Shown here: in pieces, positions 53,990 to 63,065 of the stretch
How positions within the stretch are numbered: position 1 is the first letter of the stretch
How the letters are laid out: the number at the start of each line of letters is the position of its first letter
Origin: Lentisphaerales bacterium
GTDB lineage: Bacteria; Verrucomicrobiota; Lentisphaeria; Lentisphaerales; Lentisphaeraceae
Reading direction: 5' to 3'
Length of the DNA stretch: 64,000 bases
Assembly: GCA_022446985.1 (NCBI GenBank)
Contig: JAKVBD010000003.1
Coordinates: 62,001-126,000, forward strand
The notes under the pieces: model-generated
What the model was told of the DNA's origin: nothing
Seen by the model: only the letters and a program-made list of their open reading frames with translations
The model's database searches: none
Position numbers and translations under genes: made by a program

Positions 53990-55045
53990 TTAATTAATTC
54001 CAAGAATGCGCTTATTGCTTTCTTCATCGGCTTCGCCACCGGCAAAGTCATCAAAGGCTTTATCGGTAACGCGAATGATGTGATCGGCAATAAATTTAAC
54101 CCCTTCAGTTGCGCCATCCTCCGGGTGCTTCATGCAGCATTCCCATTCGAGAACAGGCCAACCATCGAAGTCATACTTCGCCATTCTGGAAAAGACGCCT
54201 TTGAAATCAACCTGACCATCTCCGAGTGAACGGAAACGTCCCGGTCGATCAATCCAATCCGCATAGCCGCCGTAAACTCCGGCGCGTCCACTTGGAATGA
54301 ACTCAGCATCTTTAACGTGAAACACTTTGATCTTTTCGTGATAAATATCGATGAACTCTAGATAATCCATGCACTGAAGAACAAAGTGAGATGGGTCGTA
54401 AAGAATGTTGCAGCGTGTGTGATTGCCACAGGCCTCTAACATTCTCTCAAAAGTTATGCCGTCGTGCAGGTCTTCACCCGGGTGCAGTTCAAAACCTATG
54501 TCGACTCCACACTCATCAAAATAATCAAAAATCGGCAACCACCTTTTAGCCAATTCTTTAAAACCGGCTTCCACCAAGCCTTGAGGTCGCTGTGGCCATG
54601 GATACATGGTGTGCCATAGCAGTGAACCAGAGAAAGATCCCTGAGTTGTCAGGCCTAGCCTTTGCGATGCCTTTGCAGCATACTTCATTTGCTGGACAGC
54701 CCACTCTGTTCTTTCCTTGGGCTTACCATGTAGTTCTTTTGGTGCAAAAGTGTCAAACATGGCGTCGTAAGCCGGATGAACGGCCACAAGCTGGCCGTGA
54801 AGATGACTGGCTAATTCAGTAATTTCCAAGCCATGACTGGCGACGATGCCTTTAAGTTTATCGCAATAGTCTTGACTCTCTGCAGCCAATTTTATGTCTA
54901 TGCAACGCTCATCCGAGGATGGAATCTGAATGCCTTTAAAACCTTTCGAGGCAGCCCATTCTGCGGCGTTATTTAAGTTATCAAATGGCGCTTCTGAGCC
55001 CATAAACTGAGCAAGAAATAGCGCCGGATCTTTAAGAGTTTTCAT
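53990..55045 (-). CDS. Sugar phosphate isomerase/epimerase (TIM barrel)
   Basis: The 351-residue cytoplasmic protein belongs to the AP-endonuclease-2-like TIM barrel superfamily. Metal-ligand segments are IGFELHPGEDLHDG, NILYDPSHF, KVFHVKDAEF and VLEWEC. Its closest type, judged by the HPGED and HVKDAEF blocks, is the isomerase family found beside GFO/IDH oxidoreductases in polyol and sugar catabolism. The substrate is unknown. It lies 79 nt before galM. Confidence 0.88.
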   Translation of the reverse strand: MKTLKDPALFLAQFMGSEAPFDNLNNAAEWAASKGFKGIQIPSSDERCIDIKLAAESQDYCDKLKGIVASHGLEITELASHLHGQLVAVHPAYDAMFDTFAPKELHGKPKERTEWAVQQMKYAAKASQRLGLTTQGSFSGSLLWHTMYPWPQRPQGLVEAGFKELAKRWLPIFDYFDECGVDIGFELHPGEDLHDGITFERMLEACGNHTRCNILYDPSHFVLQCMDYLEFIDIYHEKIKVFHVKDAEFIPSGRAGVYGGYADWIDRPGRFRSLGDGQVDFKGVFSRMAKYDFDGWPVLEWECCMKHPEDGATEGVKFIADHIIRVTDKAFDDFAGGEADEESNKRILGIN

Positions 55046-55205: not shown

Positions 55206-56195
55206 TTAAGCTTTCAAGATCTTCTCGATATCATCCAGTTCTTCTGGAGAGAATGTTCTGTTATCCAGTGATGCTACGGCATCCTCGATATGCTGAACAC
55301 GGCTGGCTCCAAGAATAACTGATGTCATTGCCGGGTGTTTAAGTACCCAGGCAACAGCCATTTGTGCTAAAGTCTGTCCGCGTCTTTCAGCAATCGCGTG
55401 AAGTGCTTTAACTTTCCCCAGGACAGCATCGTTCACTTCATCTTTCTGAAGGAAACCATCATCACGACCAGCTCTTGAGTTAGCCGGAATACCATTCAAG
55501 TATTTGTTTGTAAGGAGACCTTGCGCCAGAGATGAGAAGCTGATACATCCCATACCTGTTTCTTCAACGGCATCGAGAAGACCATCTTCAACCCAGCGGT
55601 CAAACATGCTGTAGCGTGGCTGATTGATAAGACAAGGAGTCCCCAGTTCTTTAAGAATGGCAGCGGCTTCTTTAGTCTGTTCGGCATCGTAAGAAGAAAT
55701 ACCGACGTAAAGAGCACGGCCTGAACGGACGATATGATCAAGTGCGCCCATAGTTTCTTCCAGTGGAGTTTCTGGATCAAATCTGTGAGAATAGAAGATA
55801 TCAACATAATCAAGCCCCATGCGCTTGAGACTCTGATCACAGCTGGCAACGAGATATTTCTTTGAGCCCCACTCACCATAAGGTCCAGGCCACATATCGT
55901 ATCCGGCTTTACTTGAGATGATCAATTCATCGCGGTAAACATTCAGGCCTTCTTCAAGGATCTGGCCAAAGTTCGTTTCTGCAGAACCGTATGGAGGGCC
56001 ATAGTTGTTTGCCAGGTCGAAGTGAGTAATCCCCAAGTCGAATGCCTTGTGAGTCATTTGTTTGGCATTTTCATAAATATCATTGCCACCCCAGTTGTGC
56101 CATAGGCCAAGTGAAATTGCCGGTAATTTTAGACCGCTTTTACCACAACGGTTATAAACCATAGAATCATAGCGTGAATCTGCTGCTTTATACAT
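55206..56195 (-). CDS. Aldo/keto reductase, YghZ-like
   Basis: The product (329 residues) is an NADPH-dependent aldo/keto reductase. The catalytic tetrad is visible as Asp and Tyr in FDLANNYGPPYGSAE, Lys in IISSKAGYDM and His in YSHRFDP, and the cofactor end is VILGASRVQHIEDA. The MWPGPYGEWGSKKYL loop matches YghZ (L-glyceraldehyde-3-phosphate reductase). ATG 56195 is 10 nt from AAGGA; the upstream ATG 56204 abuts the Shine-Dalgarno sequence. A sugar-derived aldehyde is the likely substrate in this locus. Confidence 0.92.
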   Translation of the reverse strand: MYKAADSRYDSMVYNRCGKSGLKLPAISLGLWHNWGGNDIYENAKQMTHKAFDLGITHFDLANNYGPPYGSAETNFGQILEEGLNVYRDELIISSKAGYDMWPGPYGEWGSKKYLVASCDQSLKRMGLDYVDIFYSHRFDPETPLEETMGALDHIVRSGRALYVGISSYDAEQTKEAAAILKELGTPCLINQPRYSMFDRWVEDGLLDAVEETGMGCISFSSLAQGLLTNKYLNGIPANSRAGRDDGFLQKDEVNDAVLGKVKALHAIAERRGQTLAQMAVAWVLKHPAMTSVILGASRVQHIEDAVASLDNRTFSPEELDDIEKILKA

Positions 56196-56204
56196 AATAT
56201 TCAT

Positions 56205-56509: not shown

Positions 56510-57883
56510 CTAAGCAATAAGCTCCGGTATAATGTCCGCACCTACTTGAGATAATTGTTTATTTCGACCAGCATGGAAGAAAGTCAGACGATTATCGTCC
56601 AGCCCCATCAAGTGTAGAATCGTCTTATGTACATCCTTAATGGGGTGCACTTTCTCAACAGCATTCAAACCTATTTCATCAGTCGCACCAATCGTATGAC
56701 CTGCTTTAACTCCACCACCGGCAAACCACATAGTCATACCAGTTGCATTGTGATCACGACCGGCTTTCTTACCGCCACCACGAACACCATTATCTGGAGA
56801 ACGACCAAACTCACCAGTGAATATCACTAAAGTATCTTCAAGAAGTCCACGCTGCTTGAGATCCTGCAGTAAACCGGTAATCGGCTTATCAACACCCTGA
56901 ATTCTCTTCTTATGAGCATCTTCCAGGTAGTCATGCGAATCCCAACCACTGGCATACACCTCAACAAAACGAACACCTTTCTCAACTAAACGGCGGGCCA
57001 AAAGACAACGACGACCAAAGCTGTCAGTAACTTTATTACCGATGCCATACATATCCTTAACATGCTGCTGTTCGTTATCGACATTGACGATTTCAGGTAC
57101 CTGATCCTGCATGCGATACGCCAGCTGATATGCTTCCATTCTTGCTTTCAAATCTCCATGATCTGGATGTTTGCCAGCATGAGCTTTATTAAAAGCAGTC
57201 AGTAAATCGAGATTAGCTTTCTGCGTTGAGCGAGCCACACCTTTAGGCGGATTCAAATCTAAAATTGGCGAACCTACCGGGCGCATAGGAGTTCCCTGAA
57301 AATAAGCCGGGAGGTATCCGTTTGACCAATTTGCCGCACCACCCTGCGGGTAGTTCAGTTCAGGCAGAATAACAAAACCAGGAAGGTCAGGGTTTTCAGA
57401 ACCAAGACCATAAGTTACCCAGGCACCGATTCCCGGATCGCCGATAAATTTATTACCGGTATTCATATGATAACATGCCGTTGGGTGATTGACCGATTCA
57501 GCCTGAGCGCCTTTGTAAAAACAAATGTCATCCGCAACTTTTTCAAGTTCCTGAAAGTGCTCACACATCCAGGCTCCGGACTGACCGGTCTGACGGAACA
57601 TATAAGGACTGCCTACGTAATACCTTTTACCGGATTCCATGTTGGATTTAAACTTCTTCTCTTTAACGAATTCTTTCATGTGAAGCTTATTTAAAGCCGG
57701 CTTAGGGTCGAATGTATCCATGTGACTTGGAGCGCCTTCCATGAAAAGCATGATCACTCTTTTTGCTTTGGCAGGCAGGTGACCTTTTTTCGGATCTAAA
57801 GGACCGGCAAAACTTTGCTGAGGTACTGCAAGAGCACCGGCGGTTCCGGCCATTGAGTAAAGAAATTGTCTTCTATTAATCAT
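56510..57883 (-). CDS. DUF1501-family exported protein
   Basis: The 457-residue protein opens with a twin-arginine signal (NRRQFLYSMAGTAGALAVPQ) and then the DUF1501 domain, distantly related to the alkaline phosphatase/sulfatase fold. Blocks are VIMLFMEGAPSHMDTFDPKP, VEVYASGWDSHDYLEDAHKK and FTGEFGRSPDNG. The function is not established. It stands 11 nt after the AraC-PSD1 fusion gene, matching the usual PSD1-DUF1501 pairing in planctomycetes and relatives, so the two products probably act together outside the cytoplasm. Confidence 0.93.
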   Translation of the reverse strand: MINRRQFLYSMAGTAGALAVPQQSFAGPLDPKKGHLPAKAKRVIMLFMEGAPSHMDTFDPKPALNKLHMKEFVKEKKFKSNMESGKRYYVGSPYMFRQTGQSGAWMCEHFQELEKVADDICFYKGAQAESVNHPTACYHMNTGNKFIGDPGIGAWVTYGLGSENPDLPGFVILPELNYPQGGAANWSNGYLPAYFQGTPMRPVGSPILDLNPPKGVARSTQKANLDLLTAFNKAHAGKHPDHGDLKARMEAYQLAYRMQDQVPEIVNVDNEQQHVKDMYGIGNKVTDSFGRRCLLARRLVEKGVRFVEVYASGWDSHDYLEDAHKKRIQGVDKPITGLLQDLKQRGLLEDTLVIFTGEFGRSPDNGVRGGGKKAGRDHNATGMTMWFAGGGVKAGHTIGATDEIGLNAVEKVHPIKDVHKTILHLMGLDDNRLTFFHAGRNKQLSQVGADIIPELIA

Positions 57884-57894
57884 TATCTAACCTC

Positions 57895-60800
57895 TTAGTA
57901 CACGTATAGAAATTCATTTGAGTTAATCATCACCAGGCAAAGCTCAGCCAGCGCTCTGGTCGATGCATCGACATCCCATGGCATGAGATCGCGCTCGTAG
58001 TATTTCATAACCGTCAGTTTTTGCGGCCATGAAACCGGCTCACCGGTTTTTTCGGCAATCATCTCACCGGCAACTTCAGTCGGCAATTCAAACTTCTCAG
58101 GTTTATTTTGCTGATGTTGAACTTTCATTTTCTCAAGATGCGCAACAGCCTGCTCCATCTCGGTTGCATTTGGCAGTCTGCCATAGAACTTCTTAAACGT
58201 TTCATTAACCTGGGCTACGAACCCTTTATGGCTGCCGGCAATTCGATTGGCAATAGCAAGAGCACGGTGATGAATGTACTCACTGTTAAAGAGTGAAAAT
58301 GCCTGCGGCGTCACCGTTGTTTCATCTCTTCTGGCACAGGACAATTCTGAACCGGGTTTATTAAAAACTTCCAGTAATGGATCAGCTTTAGAACGACGTA
58401 CAAAAGCATAAATCTGTCGGCGATTTCTTTCCGCTCTTTTAGCCGATGGTTGCAGCACTGGAGCCAGAGATCCCATAATTAACTGATTCTGTATCATGAC
58501 TTCCCAGTTCATTTCAGGAAAGATACCAGGACCGCCCATCTCTGCATTAAACTCACCACTCATTTTGAGAAGTGTATCGTAAATCATCTCTGCCTGTAAG
58601 CGGCGAACCGGAAAATAACGCAGCAGTTTATTATCCGGATCTTTGGATTTTAGCGTCTCAAACTGCTGATGATCATTCGACATCTGATAAGCCTTGGAAG
58701 TCATGATGTACTTGTGAAGCTTCTTGATTGACCAACCTTTTTCAACAAACCAGCTTGCCAGGTGATCCAATAATTCCGGGTGAGTCGGCTTAGCGCCTGA
58801 AACACCGAAGCTATTTGGCGTATTAACCAGACCTGTCGAAAAGTGCTGTTGCCAAATGCGATTGACAATAACTCGCGAAGTCATCGTATTTTTAGGACTT
58901 GCCAACCATTTAGCGAATGCCAAACGACGACCTTCAAGGGTATGTGGAACGCTATTGTAAGTCGTTGCCTGAGCGACATCATTGGATTCATACATCGCAG
59001 ACAGAACTCCCGGCGTCACCTTTTCTCCTGGAGATTCGATCGAACCACCGGTTAAAATAGCCGTTGTTGGAACAGCACCTTCCCCCTTCTTCTTGGGAAG
59101 AGGAAGGTCTATAAATTTTGATGCTGTTACCCTAAGTTCTCCATTATAAACTGAGTAAGCAAAAGGTTCGAAGCGCTTTAACTCTCTCTCAAAATAATTC
59201 TTCTGTTTACTAACGATGTTCTTAAAGGACTCAAGGTCCTTATCATCTTTTCTCTTTTTGAGCTCAGTTTCGACTTCAATGATTTTCTCTTGGGCTAACT
59301 TGTCGCTGAATTTCTTACCAGAAATATTTTCTGAATTCATAAATGGTAATTTGCGCTCAGCGAATTGAGTCCCGGCAAAGACTGCCTGAATACGGTAATA
59401 ATCCTTGGTGGGAATCGGGTCAAATTTGTGGTCGTGACACTTCGCACAGCCCAATGGCTGAGCTAGAAAAGTCTTACCAACACCTTCTGTAACATCATCA
59501 AGAAATAGCTGACGAGTCACTTCTTCTACACTCATTCCGGTGTGTTCCCAGGCTCCCATTCTGAGGAAACCTGTAGCTATAATTTTTTCAGGACTGTGTG
59601 GATCCATTTCATCGCCGGCAATCTGCTCCATGGCAAATTGATCAAATGGTTTATCCTGATTGAATGAGCGAATCACATAGTCGCGGTAACGCCAGGCATT
59701 TGGTCTTTCAAAATCATTGGCATAACCACCTGTGTCAGCATAGCGGGTGACATCCAGCCACATACGCGCCATTTGTTCGCCATAGTGTTTTGACGCCATC
59801 AAGCGATCAATTGCTTTTTCATAGGCATCTTTAGACTGATCTTTAACAAATTCCTGAATTTCTTCATAACTTGGATTAAAGCCGGTAAGATCTAGATAAG
59901 CGCGGCGAATCAACTGTTCCTTACTTGCTGCAGGTGCCATAGCGACTTCAGTTTTTTTGGCTTTTTCCTCCAGGAAATTATCAATGGCATGTTTATGTCC
60001 GGTATTTGGAACCTCATGCTCAACGACCGGTTGATAAGCCCAGATATCTTCGATGTTGTAACGACGATTTGCCCAATCTTGCGAAAGTGCACCACTGGAA
60101 GAAACTTTGACAAAGCTGGTATCATTCTCAAGAATCGAATCATCCGGCCAATTGGCTCCGGCATTGATCCAATCCTCAATCCAGCCAATTTGAGCTGCAG
60201 TCAGTTTATTTGACTCTTTGGGGGGCATGGCGTCATCTTCATCTTCTCTTTTAATAAGAGACACCAATGGACTGTCAGCGGCATTCCCAGGAATGATCGC
60301 TGCTTTACCTGATTTGCCGCCTTTTAGCATGCCTTCGTGGGTGAGCATGTTATAGTCGCCTTTGATCTTCTTTTCATTTTCACCATGACAACCAAAGCAC
60401 TCCTGAGCGAAGAGAGGTTTAATTTTACGCAGGAAAAGTAGATCTGTTTCAGATGGCTTTTCATTTGCCGAAAGTTGATTCCCTGAGAACATGAAAATCG
60501 AACATATAAAGAATATGATCAGTAATTTAACGCTGTTGCCCATGCCGTTAAGGTCTTTGCTTTTCTTCTCTGACTGAAATCTCTTGCGATACTCTCTCGG
60601 AGTCATGCCACGGAGTTGCTTAAATTGAGTCGAAAAGAAAGATGCTGCCGAGTAGCCAACCTGCTCAGCGATTTCATTGAGATCCATCTCGGTATCTTCT
60701 AAAAGACGAATAGCTTCTTCTGTTCGCAGGTGATTCATCATTTTTACCGGCGTTGTGCTGTAAACCAACTTAAAGCGACGCTGCATCTGACTGACAGAAA

Positions 60801-61479
60801 GACCGGAAATCTCTGCCAGATCTACAATGCGAATAGCGGTTCTGTAATTCTGACAAATATGGCTGACGACATTCGCCATGGAAACGGCAAAACGATCATC
60901 GTTGGCATTGACCTTTTCGTAATAACGACTGAGGTAACAAACCAACTGCACAAATAAACCGCGAATGACACTTTTGTATCCTGCTGCATGATCTTCAAAT
61001 TCTGTGAATAGCTTTTGAAATACTGCTTTACACTCAGTCAACTCACTTGGCTGAAGACGGAAGCGCTGGCGGTAAGTCATACTTTGTGGAGTTCGGGCTT
61101 CAATGTCGAATAAGCCATGATACCCCATAAGTTTATTTAAATCATCCAGATGATTTGCCAATTCTTCCTGATCAAACTGAACAATCGCCAAGCGCAGGTT
61201 TTCGCATTTCACAAAACCATGCTGGTGATCACCATTGATCACAAAGACATCGCCTTCCTCAATCTGATAGTCTTCATAATCTGTCACATGAACAGCCGAT
61301 CCACTGAGAACTATATTCAACTCTGAATACTCATGTCCATGCATAGGAAAGTCTTCATTATGCTCTACATCCAGAACATTAAACGGAAACCCATCCCGCA
61401 GGTCTCCAGACATAGTTCCCGTACAAACGTGAGCTTGTCTTTTACCTCTAATCGTCTTTACACTTTTTGCTTCCATCAA
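57895..61479 (-). CDS. AraC-type regulator fused to exported PSD1 (cytochrome, DUF1549, DUF1553) protein
   Basis: One uninterrupted frame of 1194 residues joins two normally separate proteins. Residues 25-115 form a RhaS/RhaR-like cupin (DFPMHGHEYSELNIVLSG, GDVFVINGDHQHGF) and about 205-305 an AraC double HTH (GYSAASFFSTQFKQLRGMTP). A hydrophobic helix follows at about 316-335, ending in a signal-peptidase-like LSANE. Then come a Planctomycete cytochrome domain with CFGCH near 362, DUF1549 from about 500 with a second CAKCH motif near 677, and DUF1553 to the end. Met 313 (60543) could start a separate PSD1 protein, but no Shine-Dalgarno is present there. Predicted topology puts the regulator in the cytoplasm and the haem part in the periplasm. 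It is 11 nt before DUF1501. Confidence 0.82.
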   Translation of the reverse strand: MMEAKSVKTIRGKRQAHVCTGTMSGDLRDGFPFNVLDVEHNEDFPMHGHEYSELNIVLSGSAVHVTDYEDYQIEEGDVFVINGDHQHGFVKCENLRLAIVQFDQEELANHLDDLNKLMGYHGLFDIEARTPQSMTYRQRFRLQPSELTECKAVFQKLFTEFEDHAAGYKSVIRGLFVQLVCYLSRYYEKVNANDDRFAVSMANVVSHICQNYRTAIRIVDLAEISGLSVSQMQRRFKLVYSTTPVKMMNHLRTEEAIRLLEDTEMDLNEIAEQVGYSAASFFSTQFKQLRGMTPREYRKRFQSEKKSKDLNGMGNSVKLLIIFFICSIFMFSGNQLSANEKPSETDLLFLRKIKPLFAQECFGCHGENEKKIKGDYNMLTHEGMLKGGKSGKAAIIPGNAADSPLVSLIKREDEDDAMPPKESNKLTAAQIGWIEDWINAGANWPDDSILENDTSFVKVSSSGALSQDWANRRYNIEDIWAYQPVVEHEVPNTGHKHAIDNFLEEKAKKTEVAMAPAASKEQLIRRAYLDLTGFNPSYEEIQEFVKDQSKDAYEKAIDRLMASKHYGEQMARMWLDVTRYADTGGYANDFERPNAWRYRDYVIRSFNQDKPFDQFAMEQIAGDEMDPHSPEKIIATGFLRMGAWEHTGMSVEEVTRQLFLDDVTEGVGKTFLAQPLGCAKCHDHKFDPIPTKDYYRIQAVFAGTQFAERKLPFMNSENISGKKFSDKLAQEKIIEVETELKKRKDDKDLESFKNIVSKQKNYFERELKRFEPFAYSVYNGELRVTASKFIDLPLPKKKGEGAVPTTAILTGGSIESPGEKVTPGVLSAMYESNDVAQATTYNSVPHTLEGRRLAFAKWLASPKNTMTSRVIVNRIWQQHFSTGLVNTPNSFGVSGAKPTHPELLDHLASWFVEKGWSIKKLHKYIMTSKAYQMSNDHQQFETLKSKDPDNKLLRYFPVRRLQAEMIYDTLLKMSGEFNAEMGGPGIFPEMNWEVMIQNQLIMGSLAPVLQPSAKRAERNRRQIYAFVRRSKADPLLEVFNKPGSELSCARRDETTVTPQAFSLFNSEYIHHRALAIANRIAGSHKGFVAQVNETFKKFYGRLPNATEMEQAVAHLEKMKVQHQQNKPEKFELPTEVAGEMIAEKTGEPVSWPQKLTVMKYYERDLMPWDVDASTRALAELCLVMINSNEFLYVY

Positions 61480-61641
61480 ACACCAATGACCAAATACTTA
61501 AATTAAACTTTAATAACCTATACTCCCAAAACTCAATATTTGTGAACTAATATTTAAATTTTATTTAAATTTTTAACTATAAAAACACTATATAATATAC
61601 TCAAATATTTGATTTTAAACAACTTATAAATAAAATACAAA

Positions 61642-61687
61642 ATGACATTATTTTAAACCATACTCTTAGATGACATTATTCTTAAAC
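61642..61687. promoter_or_regulatory. Paired direct repeats upstream of the AraC-PSD1 gene
   Basis: ATGACATTATTTTAAAC (61642-61658) and ATGACATTATTCTTAAAC (61670-61687) differ by one inserted base, and their starts are 28 nt apart. AraC-family proteins often bind such tandem half-sites, so autoregulation of the gene starting at 61479 is inferred. Confidence 0.5.
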
Positions 61688-61805
61688 TAATTAATTAAAA
61701 TCGCTGCAGAAAGAAAGGGGTTTTTCTATCTACACTAGATAAGCGTCACAAAATTAAAACTGATAAAATTACTACAGGGAAAGAAGCTGGATTTACAATT
61801 AGCTG

Positions 61806-61898
61806 ATGAGAAGCGGATACCTGATTTCAATTTCACTCAATATCATCAGCATTCCTTTTATCTGCATAGGAGTTGGCGGGGCAGGCTTTTTTATATGA
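61806..61898 (+). CDS. Possible small membrane peptide, 30 aa
   Basis: The frame MRSGYLISISLNIISIPFIC continues with a Gly-rich hydrophobic end (IGVGGAGFFI), giving one predicted membrane helix. No convincing ribosome-binding site precedes it, and it could be chance or the remnant of a signal sequence. Kept only because the rest of the gap is empty. Confidence 0.2.
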   Translation: MRSGYLISISLNIISIPFICIGVGGAGFFI

Positions 61899-61956
61899 TA
61901 CCATCGTTAATTATACGATAGTTGACGCAGCAGTCTGCACTTGAATTGAGAAACTA

Positions 61957-61972
61957 AAGTAAGCGCTTTATT
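61957..61972. promoter_or_regulatory. LacI-family-like palindrome
   Basis: AAGCGCTT at 61961-61968 is a perfect 8-bp palindrome with partly symmetric A/T flanks (AA at 61957, TT at 61971), the type of centre bound by LacI/GalR regulators. No LacI-type gene is seen in the window. Confidence 0.3.
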
Positions 61973-62050
61973 CTAAGACAAAGACCTTCAAGATTTTGTG
62001 TGGGATAATTTTTGATACAGACATATTTTATAATTCTCAGTGTACTCGGT

Positions 62051-62090
62051 CTCTGTGGTAAAAAACGATTACACCACTAATGCCACAGAG
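62051..62090. repeat. CTCTGTGG/CCACAGAG inverted repeat
   Basis: Two 8-bp arms (62051-62058 and 62083-62090) are separated by 24 nt. The string resembles short repeats seen between genes elsewhere in this window in being GC-richer than its surroundings, but there is no shared sequence. Confidence 0.5.
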
Positions 62091-62263
62091 GATATATAAA
62101 GAAGATTGCAAGTGAATAAGACTATTGATTTCTAGTAGTTATAAAATGCCAGAATTATAGAACTTTGATAAACTCTTTTTTCAGTACCCACTTGAACGGT
62201 TTATGCTCCCGAACCCAACACTGTTTCCAGTAGCCCTTTAAAAAATCGTTTTCCACACAGTCC

Positions 62264-62914
62264 TTACTGTTCAACATCCCAGAAAGTATGGGTCCCCGTA
62301 TTTACACCAAGAAGAAAACTTATAGACTTCGACTTACTGCTGCCATCCAAAAAAGTCACATTCGCTCTATCAAGGTGACGAGCGACTCGTTCCTCTTCCG
62401 GTAACTCCATAAGACTGGCCGAATCCATATACCACCAACCTGACTTTGAAAAGTTTTTCTTTGAATCAATGGCCATTGCAGTTTCATCTGCCGTCGCTTG
62501 ATGCAAGGCTGTTTGATGAAACGAGCCATTTGCCCAGGTGCTTCCCGCAACTCCAGGAGTCAAAGCTATGGACGATTGCCAAACTTCTGTTAACTCCATA
62601 CCACTTGGACATTTCTGCACATTTGATGGGCCGCCATCCCCTAGTGGTCCCTCAGGCAACAAACTTGGAATCAAACGATCAAACCAACGGGTACTGTTAG
62701 TATCCTTATGAGAAGGACCATAATTATTGTTATCAATAATATAGGAAGTCACCGCTATTCCTACTTGCCGTTGATTACTCATACAAACAGTCTGCATGGT
62801 CTTATTTCGAGCTTTCGCCAAAGAAGGTAACAAAATACTGGCAAGGATACCAATAATAGAAATAACAACAAGAAGTTCAATAAGAGTAAACTTCGACACG
62901 ACACGATTATACAT
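62264..62914 (-). CDS. Type II secretion-like pseudopilin (prepilin N-terminus)
   Basis: The product (216 residues) has the prepilin motif KFTLIELLVVISIIGILAS with Glu5 of the mature form, then ILLPSLAKAR. The C-terminal part has VARHLDRANVTFLDGSS, the H-x9-DG-type block of PVC pseudopilin-like proteins. Lentisphaerae carry very many such proteins, whose role is unresolved. ATG 62914 is 9 nt from GGAG; the earlier TTG/ATG codons overlap the Shine-Dalgarno sequence. It stands alone, with no secretion genes nearby. Confidence 0.85.
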   Translation of the reverse strand: MYNRVVSKFTLIELLVVISIIGILASILLPSLAKARNKTMQTVCMSNQRQVGIAVTSYIIDNNNYGPSHKDTNSTRWFDRLIPSLLPEGPLGDGGPSNVQKCPSGMELTEVWQSSIALTPGVAGSTWANGSFHQTALHQATADETAMAIDSKKNFSKSGWWYMDSASLMELPEEERVARHLDRANVTFLDGSSKSKSISFLLGVNTGTHTFWDVEQ

Positions 62915-63065
62915 ACACGACATCTCCAATACAAATACACAACGTTAAGGAAATGCCTAAAGAGCAAAACAGCTTGTAAAGTTTAAACTCATTTGTGTAT
63001 ATTTGGGCAACTTAGCTACAGCAAGACAAAAAGGGACCTACATATAAAGAAAGGGACAAAAAGAA

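Follow-up and report, generated by a model that had tools for sequence, protein, structure and literature searches.

An AraC-family regulator joined in one reading frame to a PSCyt1-PSCyt2-PSD1 protein in two Lentisphaeraceae species

PSCyt/PSD proteins are frequent in PVC bacteria and their function is unknown (PMC5615132). In a 64,000-nucleotide stretch of a Lentisphaerales genome (GCA_022446985.1, contig JAKVBD010000003.1, positions 62,001 to 126,000; hereafter the window), one frame on the reverse strand (57895-61479) runs for 1194 codons without a stop, counted from TTG 61479, and places a RhaS-like AraC regulator ahead of a protein of this kind. The locus raises the question of whether such a frame yields one polypeptide and, if so, how a DNA-binding regulator and a haem-motif protein of the exported type could work as one. 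The domain sets on both sides of the join are already known; no published AraC-PSD1 fusion was found in the literature covered, which includes few papers on these families.

One frame, two protein families

The original prediction described the 1194-codon frame as a RhaS-like cupin and AraC helix-turn-helix (HTH), then a hydrophobic helix, then a haem-motif PSD1 protein, and inspection of the frame together with Pfam analysis bears out each of these elements (Table 1). Models matched along the 1193-aa protein comprise AraC_binding/Cupin_2, HTH_18 (E 2e-21), PSCyt1 (2e-16), PSCyt2 (3e-80) and PSD1 (2e-81). ATG 61476, directly after TTG 61479, opens a frame of 1193 codons and is almost certainly the true start of the fusion, because both the ortholog in a second species and a free paralog begin with M(E/K)AK, and the alignment sets the window start at this codon. 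The N-terminal part belongs to the AraC/XylS family, with HTH_18 above its gathering score and AraC_binding and Cupin_2 above their cut-offs. It shares the cupin and double HTH (residues 40-300) of RhaS/RhaR-type activators and its best NCBIfam model is RhaS; at 98 bits against the curated equivalog cut-off of 288 it is RhaS-like rather than RhaS. Such activators are soluble proteins with nothing beyond the HTH, whereas in the fusion an export signal and a further 850 residues of an exported-type protein come after it. That second part has the three Pfam domains in the usual PSCyt1-PSCyt2-PSD1 order, two CxxCH motifs (CFGCH and CAKCH, in which the C, C and H residues are invariant across both species), a signal-peptide-like segment and an adjacent DUF1501 gene, all as in ordinary members of the family. 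An ordinary member begins at its signal peptide, whereas the fusion has 315 residues of AraC regulator and linker ahead of it. An AlphaFold model of the fusion from a two-sequence alignment reached a pLDDT of 30.

Table 1. Features of the fused gene and its cluster (window positions)
Feature	Position	Strand	Basis or remark
Fused gene araC-PSCyt1-PSCyt2-PSD1, 1193 aa	57895..61476	(-)	ATG 61476 to TAA 57895; ortholog G001 (S10.bin.24) C102:708-4226
AraC regulator, residues 1-302, RhaS/RhaR-like cupin sensor and HTH_18	60571..61476	(-)	Pfam; RhaS model E 5e-28
Cupin ligand-binding domain, about residues 30-130, motif HGHEYSEL	61087..61389	(-)	Pfam; RhaR structure 5u93 E 1e-7
AraC double HTH DNA-binding domain, residues 199-302	60571..60882	(-)	Pfam; 70% identity between both species
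Linker, residues 303-315, charged, variable	60532..60570	(-)	Alignment
Internal ATG, Met 312 of 1193	60541..60543	(-)	Absent from second species; without Shine-Dalgarno
Signal-peptide-like segment, residues 316-337, VKLLIIFFICSIFMFSGNQLSA	60466..60531	(-)	Proposed cut A337/N338
PSCyt1 cytochrome c domain with CFGCH (residues 360-364) as haem motif	60214..60399	(-)	Pfam
PSCyt2 (DUF1549)	59365..59985	(-)	Pfam; second CxxCH is CAKCH, residues 677-681
PSD1 (DUF1553) domain	58138..58929	(-)	Pfam
DUF1501 gene, RR-type signal, next in cluster	56510..57883	(-)	Pfam; 76% identity in second species
Aldo/keto reductase, L-glyceraldehyde 3-phosphate reductase subfamily	55206..56204	(-)	89% identity in second species
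Xylose-isomerase-like TIM barrel (IolE-like)	53990..55045	(-)	90% identity in second species
Candidate operator, direct repeat AATAATGTCAT twice, start-to-start 28 bp	61642..61680	(-)	Upstream of fusion; the genome's only such pair

The same fusion is present end to end in a second species of the genus, the metagenome-assembled genome (MAG) Lentisphaeraceae S10.bin.24 (JAJPOQ010000096.1; 86% complete), with 62–63% identity over residues 1-1193 and no stops, and is followed there by the same three genes, giving the same four-gene cluster in the two genomes from which the fused state is known. Synonymous divergence between the two copies has reached saturation (pS about 0.85-0.9), whereas pN amounts to 0.27 for the AraC part (0.21 for the HTH alone) and 0.26 for PSD1, which indicates constraint on both halves, and indels in the linker keep the frame. 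The join is therefore most likely older than the divergence of the two species and has remained in frame since then. The original prediction had held that lack of the fusion in any related genome would point to an assembly error or a missed stop, and on this point the second copy speaks for a genuine fusion. A stop deleted in error between two neighbouring genes might be suspected, since the window comes from a draft genome of 271 contigs (estimated contamination 5.4%) and the other genome is itself a MAG; the occurrence of the same join in two different species, with differing sequence at that point and in-frame length differences, nevertheless makes such an error exceedingly improbable and refutes it for practical purposes.

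As no stop lies between the halves, a ribosome starting at ATG 61476 makes the whole protein. Two proteins could still come from the one frame if the PSD1 part were made mainly from Met 312 (ATG 60543), with the full-length product a minor by-product, and in the window species this methionine is placed exactly where a signal peptide would be expected to begin (MGNSVKLLIIFF). Its Shine-Dalgarno pairing of -1.7 kcal/mol is nevertheless what random ATGs give at the median, whereas gene starts across the window reach a median of -4.9, in agreement with the earlier remark that no such site is visible there; the fusion's own ATG 61476 is also weak (-2.8). In S10.bin.24, moreover, Met 312 is replaced and no ATG or GTG codon occurs between the AraC domain and the helix (the valine there is GTT). 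The nearest start candidates in that species are a TTG within the helix, an ATG downstream of it and, upstream, the MTPREYRK ATG at the HTH end, and none of the three has a clear Shine-Dalgarno. With the AraC part running on without a stop, full-length product is also expected whenever AraC is translated. A start at Met 312 was set aside as neither conserved nor preceded by a Shine-Dalgarno, and the originally offered alternative of a PSD1 part beginning at this codon is weakened accordingly by the second species. Separate initiation thus appears unlikely as a conserved mode, given the lack of ATG and GTG codons ahead of the helix in S10.bin.24, and the two-protein scenario as a whole is very improbable. 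We are highly confident that the single-polypeptide fusion is real.

The joining segment and predicted topology

The segment between the two halves resembles a signal peptide. Residues 316-330 form the hydrophobic maximum of the protein (Kyte-Doolittle mean 2.7 over 15 residues), the helix comprises 12-13 hydrophobic residues, which is signal-peptide length, and LSA/NE follows. The nearest unfused PSD1 paralog, encoded in S10.bin.24 (G001 C6), begins with MRMKLLMSIIFVFSLVLPTVNA/NEQEKFF, and both joins align with this signal peptide as VKLLIIFFICSIFMFSGNQLSA/NEKPSET in the window and FKALLLFFTVFSFMSPSLQA/EDKANE in S10.bin.24. An L-x-A ahead of a polar NE or ED is kept in both fusions, with alanine at -1; the leucine at -3 of the proposed cut is acceptable, not ideal. 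The joining segment is most simply read as the former N-terminal signal peptide of the PSD1 protein. As the paralog's signal peptide, including its A/NE site, matches the helix, cleavage near LSANE, as first proposed from the window alone, is plausible.

The haem motifs and the homology to a signal peptide suggest that the C-terminal part lies on the exported side. Haem attachment to CxxCH happens in the periplasm during c-type cytochrome maturation, which supports translocation of this part. An N-in/C-out arrangement is therein strongly indicated by the sequence. The original prediction of a membrane-tethered transcription factor is retained as regards a conserved single-frame fusion with this implied layout, while a permanent tether is now less favoured than cleavage, towards which the features of the helix incline us slightly.

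Origin, distribution and a free copy of the regulator

When 198 genomes from the class and 388 from the phylum were searched, the latter with a query spanning the join, only the two genomes of the genus showed the fusion among the matches listed. A contig search of public genomes matched only the S10.bin.24 fusion and one distant AraC gene, no fusion was found in viral contigs, and no plasmid record covered 80% of AraC plus PSCyt1. One match (G353) that apparently ran from an HTH end through TGA into PSCyt1 proved to be a PSD1 gene of the ordinary kind that has a start of its own. With the TIM barrel as its marker, the cluster is absent from the other four genomes of the family.

Beyond the genus, the unfused AraC proteins closest to the fusion among those found come from two Verrucomicrobiota families (G389, 41% identity; G507, 40%), and in both genomes the AraC gene lies divergently beside a PSD1 gene (47% and 45%, respectively), head to head at about 175-200 bp, followed by DUF1501 (64% in each). 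The G389 regulator groups with the fused clade in the AraC tree (support 100/100). Because these relatives adjoin related PSD1-DUF1501 pairs, the fusion seems to have brought together a regulator and its neighbouring operon, and it most likely joined the operon's local regulator to its target, the operon's first protein. Fusing divergent neighbours would have required a change of strand for one of the genes. The 6.3-Mb window genome has 42 PSD1 matches, and several of these have an AraC gene next to them or divergent from them; not counting the fused one, five AraC genes occur no more than 2 kb from a PSD1 gene, versus 1.2 expected (P 0.006).

The window genome also encodes a free AraC copy (C207:32056-32958; L031 10048-10965, - strand) that is 82% identical to the fused domain, has a stop right after the HTH and stands among other neighbours with no PSD1 nearby. 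No helix or PSD1 remnants were found behind it. In the AraC tree it pairs with the window fusion and the S10.bin.24 fusion falls outside that pair (support 96/96), and for this reason it most likely derives from the AraC portion of the fused gene and is younger than the fusion event. It is under constraint (pN 0.10 versus pS 0.74), which suggests that the regulator works without a tether. The cupin motif HGHEYSEL and close variants of it are kept in the fused copies, the free copy and G389, and this conservation, combined with the existence of a free-standing paralog, suggests that the regulator itself responds to a sugar in the cytoplasm. A prepilin-like gene (FTLIELLxVI...) precedes both the fusion (window 62264-62929) and the free copy (L031 11098-11754) on the same strand; such genes may be abundant in this genome and the shared placement could be chance.

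Possible modes of action and wider meaning

We posit, as the probable overall reading of the sequence, that a local RhaS-like activator was fused to PSD1 through a cleavable signal peptide and regulates its own cluster. The AraC part would fold in the cytoplasm, and the internal signal sequence would send the haem/PSD1 part through Sec in an N-in/C-out orientation. Signal peptidase I would probably cut after A337, which would release the periplasmic PSD1 protein and keep the regulator at the inner membrane by a short hydrophobic tail. The cupin probably senses a cytoplasmic sugar, as in RhaS and RhaR, and the AraC domain would activate the fusion, DUF1501, the aldo/keto reductase and the TIM barrel. 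Such a fusion would keep regulator and PSD1 protein one to one and place the regulator at the membrane. Action on its own cluster is in itself a reasonably probable element of this scheme. No operator common to both species was found, the window repeat AATAATGTCAT being without a counterpart in S10.bin.24, and promoter-like and terminator-like sites across 57500-62300 occur at chance level.

ToxR/CadC-type regulators (PMC10269533) have the same order of parts, with a cytoplasmic DNA-binding domain at the N-terminus, then a single hydrophobic helix, then a periplasmic domain at the C-terminus. They carry a winged helix, whereas the fusion has an AraC HTH and its own cupin sensor, so that the resemblance is one of working layout only; the fusion further differs in its large predicted periplasmic part with two CxxCH motifs, normally a separate protein, and in a helix that looks cleavable. 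The main text of that survey does not mention AraC. Elsewhere in the window genome an ECF sigma gene is followed by a 1166-aa PSCyt1-PSCyt2-LamG-PSD1 protein (L106 6804-10847, the same as G000 C215 24803-28846) and then by DUF1501. The N-terminus of this protein, of about 75 residues, has no Pfam match and is followed by a strong transmembrane helix (Kyte-Doolittle 3.1); from its gene position it is possibly a membrane anti-sigma factor with a periplasmic PSD1 part. As in the fusion, the PSD1 part is coupled across the membrane to an N-terminus that is predicted to be cytoplasmic and is apparently regulatory, but the regulator is of another type, the transmembrane helix is stronger and the sigma factor is a separate gene.

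A permanent, ToxR-like tether, as in the original prediction, in which an uncut anchor would let the periplasmic haem/PSD1 part sense haem redox state or a substrate and signal to AraC, would draw on the N-in/C-out layout of transmembrane regulators of that type and on the sigma-linked protein of the same genome, whose cytoplasmic N-terminus and clear transmembrane helix lie directly downstream of an ECF sigma gene; PSD1 domains may thus have entered membrane regulators more than once. We nevertheless consider this reading rather doubtful, given a helix of only signal-peptide length with L-x-A before NE/ED in both species, an AraC part that retains its cupin ligand motif, and a constrained, untethered copy that suggests function as a free protein. 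It is less probable again that export or cleavage of PSD1 sets the activity or position of AraC, by which the cell would gauge cytochrome secretion or haem loading, possibly with the operon DNA held at the membrane. The reading that we prefer remains a sugar-responsive regulator made together with, and then cut from, its PSD1 partner.

In view of the sigma-linked protein, a possible function of PSD1 domains as sensors deserves attention. Nature also provides here a transcription factor attached to a signal peptide, for which the untethered copy in the same genome serves as a natural control. The fusion and its side-by-side unfused relatives form a Rosetta-stone link that ties this PSD1 subgroup to a RhaS-like sugar regulator. 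The subgroup is on this evidence probably under sugar control, and the regulator offers a way to the ligand of its system.
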